Under the pieces are notes generated by a model. The model had not been told where the DNA came from and searched no databases. It saw only the letters and a list, made by a program, of their open reading frames with translations. From contig JAFVHU010000140.1 of assembly GCA_017474385.1 (NCBI GenBank), positions 23,142 to 87,141 on the forward strand: 64,000 nt of DNA, read 5' to 3'. Each line of letters opens with the position of its first letter. Positions within the stretch are counted from its first letter, which is position 1. This DNA comes from Afipia sp. GTDB lineage: Bacteria; Pseudomonadota; Alphaproteobacteria; Rhizobiales; Xanthobacteraceae. The position numbers were made by a program, and so were the translations under genes. Below, one piece after another: positions 8,324-11,267 of this stretch.

Positions 8324-9970
8324 ATGTCGACTGAAATGCCTTCATCCGCGAGCGACCTTCGGGCGCTTGCCGAGCAATCCAACGCCTGGCCGTTCGAGCA
8401 GGCGAAGCAGATTGTCGCGCGGCTGAAGAAAAAGCCGAAGGATGAAGTGCTGTTCGAGACCGGCTACGGTCCGTCGGGCCTGCCGCATATCGGCACGTTT
8501 GGCGAAGTGGCGCGCACCACCATGGTGCGCCACGCATTTCGCGTGCTCACCGAAGACAAGATCAAAACGAAACTGCTGGCGTTCTCCGACGACATGGACG
8601 GCCTGCGCAAGGTGCCGGACAATGTGCCGAACAAGGAGATGCTGGAACAGGATCTCGGCAAGCCGCTGACGCAGGTCCGCGATCCGTTCGGCACGCATCC
8701 GAGTTTCGGCGAGCACAACAACGCGCGGCTGCGCGCGTTTCTCGACACCTTCGGCTTCGATTACGAATTCGCCTCATCGACGCAATACTACAAGTCGGGC
8801 CGCTTCGACGCGACGCTGCTGAAGATGCTGGAGAACATCGACAAGGTGATGGCGATCATGCTGCCGTCGCTGCGTGAGGAGCGTGCGGCCACGTACTCGC
8901 CGTTCTTACCCGTCTCGCCGCGCACCGGCGTCGTGCTGCAAGTGCCGATCGTCGCGCATGACGCCAAAGCCGGCACGGTGTCCTATGACGATCCCGACAC
9001 CAAGGAGCGGGTCACCGTTCCTGTCACCGGCGGACATTGCAAGCTGCAGTGGAAGCCGGACTGGGCGATGCGCTGGGTCGCGCTCGGCGTCGATTATGAA
9101 ATGGCGGGCAAGGATCTCATCGACTCGGTCAAGCTGTCCGGAAAAATCTGCTCGGCGCTTGGCGGCACGCCGCCGGAAGGCTTCAACTACGAATTGTTTC
9201 TCGACGACAAGGGCCAGAAGATTTCCAAGTCGAAGGGCAACGGCCTCACCATCGACGAGTGGCTGCGTTATGCCTCACCGGAATCGCTGTCGCTGTTCAT
9301 GTACCGCGAGCCGAAGGCAGCGAAGCGGCTGCATTTCGACGTCATCCCGCGCAATGTCGACGACTATCAGCAGTTCACCGACGGCTACCCGCGCCAGGAT
9401 GGCAAGCAGCGCCTGAGCAATCCGGTCTGGCACATCCATGCGGGCGATCCGCCGCTCGCCGACATGCCGGTGACGTTCCAGTTGCTGCTGACGCTGGTGT
9501 CGTCATCGAACGCGGAGAATGCCGAAACGCTGTGGGGGTTCATCGGCCGTTATCGTCCGGGCGTGACGCCGAAGACGCATCCGAAGCTGGATGCGATGGT
9601 TGGCTACGCGATCAACTACTATCGCGATTTCGTGGCGCCGACGAAGACCTTCCGCGAGCCGACCGAGAGCGAGCGCGCCGCCTTGACCGATCTGCGCAAC
9701 GCGCTGGCGCAACTGCCGCCCGAGGCGTCCGCGGAAGACATCCAGAACGTGGTCTATGAAATTGGCCGCCGCGAGCCGTTTCTCGATCAGGTGAAGAAAG
9801 GCAAGGACGGCCGTCCGGGCGTCTCGCTCGACTGGTTCAACATGCTCTATCAGGTGCTGCTCGGCCAGGAGAAAGGCCCACGCTTCGGATCGTTCGTCGC
9901 GGTCTATGGCGTCACGAACGCGATCGCGATGATTGATGCGGCGCTGAAGCCAATAGACAGAGACAGATGA
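8324..9970 (+). CDS. lysK: Lysine--tRNA ligase, class I, with altered 3' end
   Basis: A 548-residue class I lysyl-tRNA synthetase, which attaches lysine to tRNA-Lys in the cytoplasm. The HIGH-type motif is at residues 55-58 ([10 protein letters not shown]) and the KMSKS-type motif at 299-304 (KISKSKGN). Class I LysRS is typical of archaea and alphaproteobacteria; no class II motifs are seen. ATG 8324 follows a GGAGA-like site; the upstream in-frame 8237 start would overlap the previous gene. The last codons read [12 protein letters not shown] and overlap the next AT-rich ORF by four bases (ATGA). A second copy of the IDAAL codons with a different tail lies 1.3 kb downstream, suggesting the true 3' end was displaced. 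Confidence 0.96.
9932..9948 (+). repeat. Direct repeat copy 1 (left junction in lysK 3' end)
   Basis: The 17 bases ATTGATGCGGCGCTGAA encode IDAALK near the end of lysK. They recur at 11235-11251 with one change (T to C, a silent Asp codon change). The match ends abruptly on both sides, as expected for a recombination core. Confidence 0.7.
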
Positions 9971-11184
9971 TGTTGCTGAAAAATCAAAATATCATCAACC
10001 GGAATGCGGCTCAATTGCTTGAAAGGGTGACACTCATATTCAATCAAGACGGCCGGCTGCGTATTTCTAACTCGATATACAAAGCCGATGAATTTATGCC
10101 TTCCGTAAAAGAGCTACTAAGGGCTTTAATCGAGTTCAATCAATCTAGTAATCATGATTACGGCGTAAAGCTATTAACTGCCACCCGAAGCTATATCCGA
10201 ACAGTCGATAAAATATTTGAAAGATCCCGGCCTAGATTTTTAACGTCAATGCGCAGCGCCGGAGGCCCAAGTTTTGTTAATGCTTATAAAGATGCCGTTT
10301 CTCTAGAGAAAATATTGGGCGTCAGCATTGCCGGCGATGAGTTTGCGCCCATAAATTTGCCGGAGCAGAAGCCTTCGCCCATCTACGCACGGGTGGAAGG
10401 ACAAAAAATTGTTCTGGATTCAGGAAAGTCTCTTCATCCACTTCTATCGGTTAGCGCACTTGATCGAACGAAAGCGTATCTAAAAGAAGAGCTTTCGCAA
10501 TTGGTGGCGGCGCTTCGATCATCAAACGTTGATAGGCGCATTGTCGCGGAATTTTCTAAATTAATTTCATTCATTGATTTTGAGGATGATGCTGGCGCAA
10601 TTATTCTGGGGTTGCATGCCAGAAAAGTTATGCAAATAGGCTCGATGGTTGAGCAAGAGGTTTCGTCTGTGTTGTCTATTCAGATCACGTCAACTCTGAT
10701 GCAGGTTTCTCATTTTTCCTCTCAATATAAAGACTGGGTCGATTTTATCAGGAACGCCTTGCAATATTCCGCGAGAGATGCCGTCGAGGATAAAATTGAT
10801 GGAGCTGTGAAAGATTTTATCGAGATTCTAGCTTCCAATCCCAATAGTATTGATCAGAGGATTCCAGAGGTTGTTAAGTCTATCGAGGGATCACTCGCTC
10901 AAGAGGAAGAAACGAGGGCGGGTGCGATCTACGCTTTGATTCGAGGGTTTGAGAATATCTGCATTGTTGCGGTTAAGTTTGCCTTTGACGAAGCGAATAA
11001 ACTTGTAAGCGAGACTGCAAAGAATATTCGAGGGATGGCCGCAAAGGCATTGGCCGTTACGGTGGTTGGTCTTGCTCTGACGATGATTTACAGCTTTATG
11101 CCTGTGATAAATGTCGCTCCAGAACTGAGCTGGATAACGGAAATCATTTCGAAAATTGAGAAGATAAAGGATATTCTAAAATAG
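9967..11184 (+). CDS. Unknown AT-rich protein with C-terminal membrane segment
   Basis: A 405-residue protein that I do not recognise. It looks mostly helical and charged. Residues about 20-75 and 175-350 contain heptad-like stretches ([35 protein letters not shown] region). One hydrophobic segment lies near the C-terminus ([20 protein letters not shown]), then a short amphipathic tail ending [10 protein letters not shown]. No signal peptide, enzyme motif or nucleotide-binding loop is evident. Base composition and codon use (many A/T-ending codons) differ sharply from every neighbour. Its ATG overlaps the lysK stop, so it probably depends on lysK transcription and translational coupling. A membrane-acting toxin or defence effector is one possibility, but nothing in the sequence proves it. 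Confidence 0.75.
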
Positions 11185-11191
11185 GGTTTAT

Positions 11192-11208
11192 CTGCATCGC
11201 TGATGCAG
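11192..11208 (+). other. Perfect 7-bp hairpin after the unknown ORF
   Basis: CTGCATC and GATGCAG pair around a three-base loop, eight bases past the stop at 11184. No T-run follows, so it is not a classic terminator. It may stabilise the transcript end or mark the element boundary. Confidence 0.4.
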
Positions 11209-11234
11209 TCCACGTGATCTGTCCGACACTAAAT

Positions 11235-11267
11235 ATTGACGCGGCGCTGAAACGGGCAGCGAGCTAG
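11235..11267 (+). pseudogene. Displaced lysK 3' end (direct repeat copy 2)
   Basis: Bases 11235-11251 repeat 9932-9948 with one mismatch. Reading on in the same frame gives IDAALKRAAS and a TAG stop at 11265-11267, a plausible native LysRS C-terminus. The ybaK-type start follows 21 bases later, which is a normal intergenic distance if this was once the end of lysK. Confidence 0.65.

Follow-up and report, generated by a model that had tools for sequence, protein, structure and literature searches.

The window, by which we mean the whole 64-kb stretch of DNA analysed here, comes from an assembly (G000) of 162 contigs that is 84% complete. On its + strand, to which all features below belong, lysK encodes a class I lysine--tRNA ligase at 8324..9970 (NF001968, 898.6 bits against a cut-off of 648; PF01921), and its tail was compared with those of relatives. 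The proximal copy of a 17-bp duplication lies within this tail at 9932..9948 (ATTGATGCGGCGCTGAA), where the frame reads IDAALK, and the distal copy is found at 11235..11251 (ATTGACGCGGCGCTGAA). A first, sequence-only reading of this DNA had reported a 17-bp direct repeat around 1.3 kb, and the repeat is indeed present, the two copies being identical at 16/17 positions with a single T/C mismatch. The block between them, delimited by aligning the rejoined flanks with the empty sites of relatives, is 1,286 bp long (9949..11234; 43.5% GC) and consists of 18 bp, an orphan ORF of 405 aa (9967..11184) and 50 bp past the ORF stop. As that reading had also described, the insertion gives lysK a new tail and brings in one AT-rich ORF: lysK reads through the edge of the insert to end in PIDRDR-stop instead of RAAS, and its stop codon overlaps the ATG of the ORF (ATGA). 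This is the one ORF of note in the insert and it has no family match, in agreement with the description of a single gene without an integrase inside. The displaced original end of lysK, IDAALKRAAS-stop, lies at 11235..11267, and a protein with a ybaK-type aminoacyl-tRNA editing domain (PF04073), the usual downstream neighbour in the genus, is encoded at 11289..11762, its start 21 bp past the displaced stop. The GC3 value is 0.44 in the insert versus 0.82 in lysK, and the sole kilobase bin of the 64-kb window below 57% GC (0.439) is that of the insert. A 7-bp hairpin without a T run lies 3' of the ORF at 11192..11208; the 121-nt fold around it had a z of -1.70 (8/200 shuffles equally good), and it was not among the terminator-like sites listed.

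A search for lysK in 61 genomes gave a match in 59, and the 3' ends were read at 30 loci, namely the window and 29 relatives. In 28 of these relatives the lysK tail reads MID-x-x-L-x-R followed by zero to three residues, and in the 29th (L024, in the congener G002) it is broken by a Tn7-like element described below. A ybaK-type gene begins 6-35 bp past the lysK stop in 17/29 relatives, among them L014, whose ybaK-type gene is just 58.6% identical to that of the window; at ten of the 29 loci there was no ybaK within the fetched stretch, and among the matches listed ybaK stands beside lysK only in this genus. At two loci, L071 (G009) and L072 (G015), the gap between lysK and ybaK is 253 bp and 217 bp, respectively, rather than 6-35 bp, which represents small spacer additions at the junction. 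The rejoined flanks of the window (157 nt) aligned with the empty sites over the full 157 nt in L003 (89%), L009 (85%), L005 (84%) and L011 (83%), and over 156 nt in L007 (87%), L002 (83%) and L008 (83%). Given these lysK tails of the relatives and the alignment of the rejoined flanks with the empty sites, the distal IDAALKRAAS-stop is the displaced original tail of lysK, confirming what had been proposed from the letters of the window. The relatives with an empty site end in IDAALKRAA-stop or similar, often with ybaK directly behind, and the contrary patterns that had been named, a PIDRDR ending in close relatives lacking the ORF or downstream codons conserved in no lysK, were looked for and did not appear. 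A foreign orphan gene was inserted once into the tail of lysK, and 17 bp of the target were duplicated. The reverse history, in which the gene is ancestral and was lost elsewhere, was ruled out by the old tail at the distal end and by the match of the rejoined flanks to the empty sites.

When the 200 bp on either flank of the ORF were shuffled locally, 0/60 shuffles gave a repeat of this quality. A 16/17 match to the lysK tail was also found downstream of 2/60 other lysK genes (in stretches of mostly about 8 kb) and in 1/13 longer stretches of relatives, and none of these three matches continues into a lysK ending. With up to 2 mismatches, the 17-mer occurs at 20 places in G000, two lysK copies included, compared to 1 for the reversed control, and another exact copy lies on contig C76 in a GC-rich stretch where nothing resembling the insert was seen. 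As a codon string the 17-mer is thus common in G000, and the repeat alone would not decide; what convinces is not any rarity of the word but that the repeat coincides exactly with the overlap between two parts of a known gene.

The 405-aa ORF matched no Pfam or NCBIfam family over cut-off, and neither the ORF nor any of its four relatives had a PADLOC match at E up to 1. PHROGs returned one weak match to a virion protein (E 0.0051), Talin_R4 and allantoin permease were other weak matches below any cut-off, and a PDB sequence search gave nothing below E 0.14. The ORF had no match in plasmids or phages, and no relative was returned by scans of genome contigs and viral contigs, a method that depends on exact short peptides and may miss near records. 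In its own genome the ORF has one match, with no further copy. Relatives were found in 2/296 sampled genomes of the family (G012, 40% identity over nearly the whole length; G079, E 2.3e-4) and in two genomes, G622 and G359, among 397 sampled from the order; 385 sampled genomes of the class gave just one 45-residue match near threshold (G751). When profiles were compared with the pair formed by the window and G012, the probabilities were 98.3% for G622, 97.3% for G359 and 86.9% for G079. At each of the four relatives the flanks gave 7-bp matches at best, which 47-53/60 shuffles reached, so that no flanking repeat there exceeds chance.

In both G012 and G079 the relative of the ORF adjoins the same gene, which we take to be thiC. 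The stretch L034:5250-6735 (G012) and its counterparts in L037, L038 and L040, all from congeners, carry differing genes beside this presumed thiC, the closest relative of the ORF included, and this is a variable spot. In L035:5492-7742 (G079), the next gene after this distant relative encodes a DUF6602 protein with matches to PD-(D/E)xK and NucC nuclease models, and the two possibly form a two-gene defence unit. The relative in G622 adjoins a DUF4238 protein and that in G359 stands alone. Taken together, the ORF looks like a scattered accessory gene of a small orphan family. Residues from about 363 to 381 are hydrophobic, which points to one membrane helix, and the product is probably an accessory protein, mostly helical, with one membrane helix near the C-terminus; the single-sequence structure prediction had a mean pLDDT of 39.3 and a pTM of 0.27. 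A role in phage defence is possible, the basis for this weakly founded suggestion being the neighbourhood of one distant relative.

Between 9800 and 11400 the sense strand had no sigma-70-like site among those listed, in a search whose scope was this promoter type. Since the insert brings just 18 bp upstream of the ATG, transcription most likely starts from the lysK promoter. Judging from the anatomy of the locus, the ORF is most likely read through from there, and its translation would be coupled to that of lysK at the ATGA overlap. This anatomy is consistent with the proposal of the sequence-only reading that expression of the cargo is tied to lysK.

In addition to the 29 relatives, we read 60 further lysK 3' ends (59 outside the genus but within the family, and that of G018 within the genus; 285 genomes had a match). 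All 60 were ordinary tails with no such bounded insertion in the stretch read, which was mostly 8 kb, so that longer insertions would be missed. Apart from the window, neither the same insert nor another insert bounded by the same repeat was found at the 29 relatives or the 60 further ends, a search that the sequence-only reading had suggested; the inserted block is known here from the genome of the window alone. No significant terminal repeats or attP-like sequence were found in the insert, the best inverted repeat at its ends (8/9 bp) being reached by 26/500 shuffles, and its DNA gave no match in plasmids. The one attP-like pattern tried gave 0 matches in viral contigs. The sole viral-contig match to the lysK-tail pattern proved to be a chance match within a collagen-like ORF, and a blastn comparison of the lysK end with phages gave short matches (E about 0.1) that lay upstream of the repeat and were set aside. 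G000 contains 11 tyrosine-recombinase matches, 10 of them over cut-off. Three tandem tyrosine-recombinase matches lie at G000:C36:1948-4297, an arrangement as in 'recombinase in trio' elements. The sequence-only reading had proposed site-specific integration by an element; the insertion itself, the new C-terminus of lysK and the old tail at the distal end all hold, whereas the attachment sites and the site specificity stay putative (no sibling at the lysK ends read, 0 attP-like matches in viral contigs, no flanking repeats above chance at the relatives of the ORF).

The congener G002 carries a 13,132-bp element at L063:703-13834 (G002:C63), within the last codons of lysK. Its lysK ends in the odd tail CKPTHS because the element occupies these codons. 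The ends of the element are related inverted sequences, CGCGG stands on both sides as a 5-bp duplication, and the site rejoined without the element reads VAMIDGALARSAG-stop. TniB and TniQ are over the Pfam cut-offs, with TnsA-like and rve matches below them, and a complete QatABCD is present (PADLOC E 2.1e-240, 1.3e-67, 3.1e-171 and 2e-113). The element is a Tn7-like transposon that sits at the end of lysK and carries defence genes as cargo. Relatives of its TniQ were found in 13/198 genomes drawn from the family, a draw that evidently did not contain G002. The place of lysK was listed for 10/13 of these genomes, at a distance of over 1.8 Mb along a shared contig in 3 and on other contigs in 7; among those listed no TniQ relative stands beside lysK, and no second lysK-targeting case was found. 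A literature search of main texts returned no report of a Tn7-like insertion or island at a lysyl-tRNA synthetase gene, and excerpts of PMC10293859 and PMC8649781 contain no mention of lysK.

Like the Tn7-like element, the insert of the window sits at the same few lysK codons and replaces the tail. In contrast to it, the insert has no Tns genes and no paired ends, and its duplication is 17 bp rather than 5 bp. Because the duplication length and the ends differ, the two insertions are taken as separate events, and the tail of lysK has been struck at least twice in the genus, apparently by different means. Both insertions may simply show that the last lysK codons are replaceable without harm.

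As to the route of insertion, we tentatively prefer, with slightly less than even confidence, a decayed or trans-mobilised site-specific insertion of CIME-like character that is expressed with lysK. On this view, an integrase absent from the insert would have acted site-specifically on the lysK tail and brought a foreign gene once into its dispensable last codons, with 17 bp of the target duplicated; lysK stays open because the insert supplies its own in-frame end. The block would be what is left of an integrated element, decayed or mobilised in trans, that kept its ends and lost its recombinase, a step that we infer, and the tyrosine recombinases of G000 could act on it in trans. In favour of this route we counted the empty sites and the displaced tail, the precedent of the IMEs and CIMEs described below, a repeat beyond what shuffles gave, the foreign composition, an orphan family whose members are single genes in variable surroundings, and the use of the same lysK tail by the Tn7-like element in G002. 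Against it we counted that the insert has no inner recombinase, no sibling at the other lysK ends read, apart from the unrelated Tn7-like element, and no attP-like match in viral contigs, that the repeat ends before the lysK stop with the tail replaced and not restored, that the four relatives of the ORF lack flanking repeats, and that the 17-mer is common in G000. A bolder version, which we regard as improbable, makes the lysK tail a preferred docking site in the genus and the insert a minimal mobile unit with one gene (~1.3 kb if circular), which is mobilised in trans and acts as an expression trap. If true, such a trap needs neither its own promoter nor its own integrase, since it supplies a new end to an essential gene and has its translation start at the stop codon of that gene.

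The main rival, which we consider rather unlikely, is end-joining capture, in which the lysK tail was broken with staggered ends, these were filled in, and Ku and a ligase joined a stray fragment between them, leaving the 17-bp duplication. Neither an attachment site nor a recombinase would be needed, and the insert would have been kept by selection because the tail is dispensable. Ku is present in G000 and in 3/3 congeners searched, and, according to the title of a paper cited in PMC7719229, bacterial NHEJ can reportedly take up heterologous DNA. The insert ends without a significant inverted repeat, as given above, also point this way, as do the relatives of the ORF, which lie in other surroundings and share no ends. 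However, end joining leaves small deletions or additions more often than a 17-bp duplication, and a second element sits at the same few lysK codons in a congener, though viability alone could explain this.

We consider it doubtful that the insert is a single-gene unit moved by non-autonomous transposition, through a trans-acting transposase that makes long target duplications. Foreign DNA between duplicated copies of the target is what such an event would leave, but the insert has no significant terminal inverted repeats, there is no second copy of the ORF in G000, and the relatives of the ORF are without flanking duplications. An assembly artefact is very unlikely: G000 is fragmented and incomplete, as noted, but both junctions lie within one 87-kb contig with the expected gene order beyond the flanks, the new reading frame of lysK stops precisely where the ORF begins, and a 17-bp repeat is shorter than usual assembly word lengths. 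Still less credence is given to the insert being what remains of a Tn7-like transposon such as that at the lysK tail of G002; the two insertion points lie within a few bases of each other in the codon alignment, but no TniQ relative was found in G000 (at 84% completeness), and the remnant was made unlikely by the duplication of 17 bp and not 5 bp and by insert ends that, by eye, are unlike those in G002. Least probable is a retrocopy, a reverse-transcribed message inserted with target duplication, for although the insert resembles a transcript (no promoter, a short leader, the ORF, a short tail and the 17-bp duplication), it has no poly-A or similar at its end, and this route was rejected because a PF00078 reverse transcriptase was found in 0/3 genomes (G000, 84% complete, G012 and G002). 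An integron cassette is similar in holding one gene, in its size of about 1.3 kb and in having little sequence upstream, but it was rejected because no attC cores (RYYYAAC / GTTRRRY) follow the ORF in 11150-11260, and target duplication is not expected for such cassettes.

Overall, the locus is a clean case in which insertion into the final codons of a housekeeping gene has put a foreign gene under it, and close relatives show the site in its empty form. Along with the QatABCD element in G002, it makes the lysK tail an insertion site to watch for defence-type cargo, and the ORF stands for a small family of accessory genes that is so far uncharacterised.

According to excerpts of PMC5704250, IMEs with tyrosine recombinases insert into housekeeping genes at their 3' ends and are bounded by direct repeats, and the name CIME is given to elements of this type that keep attL/attR and have lost the integration and transfer genes. 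Unlike these, the insert described here is one gene, no known element or integrase using its site was found, and its repeat excludes the end of the host gene, which is replaced: instead of a restored gene end, the repeat stops in a lysine codon and PIDRDR takes the place of RAAS. A related ICE or IME at the same site was not seen among the 29 relatives and 60 further lysK ends (mostly 8 kb). Because these two defining features were tested and not observed, we call the insert CIME-like and not a CIME. Where a CIME has flanking attL/attR, the insert has the 17-bp repeat, whose copies are at most putative att sites, with 0 viral-contig matches to the attP-like pattern; as in a CIME, no integration or transfer genes are left, the insert holding one ORF without a family match. 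Like CIMEs and IMEs, the insert occupies the end of a housekeeping gene that it leaves open, and a direct repeat bounds it; there is no recombinase inside.
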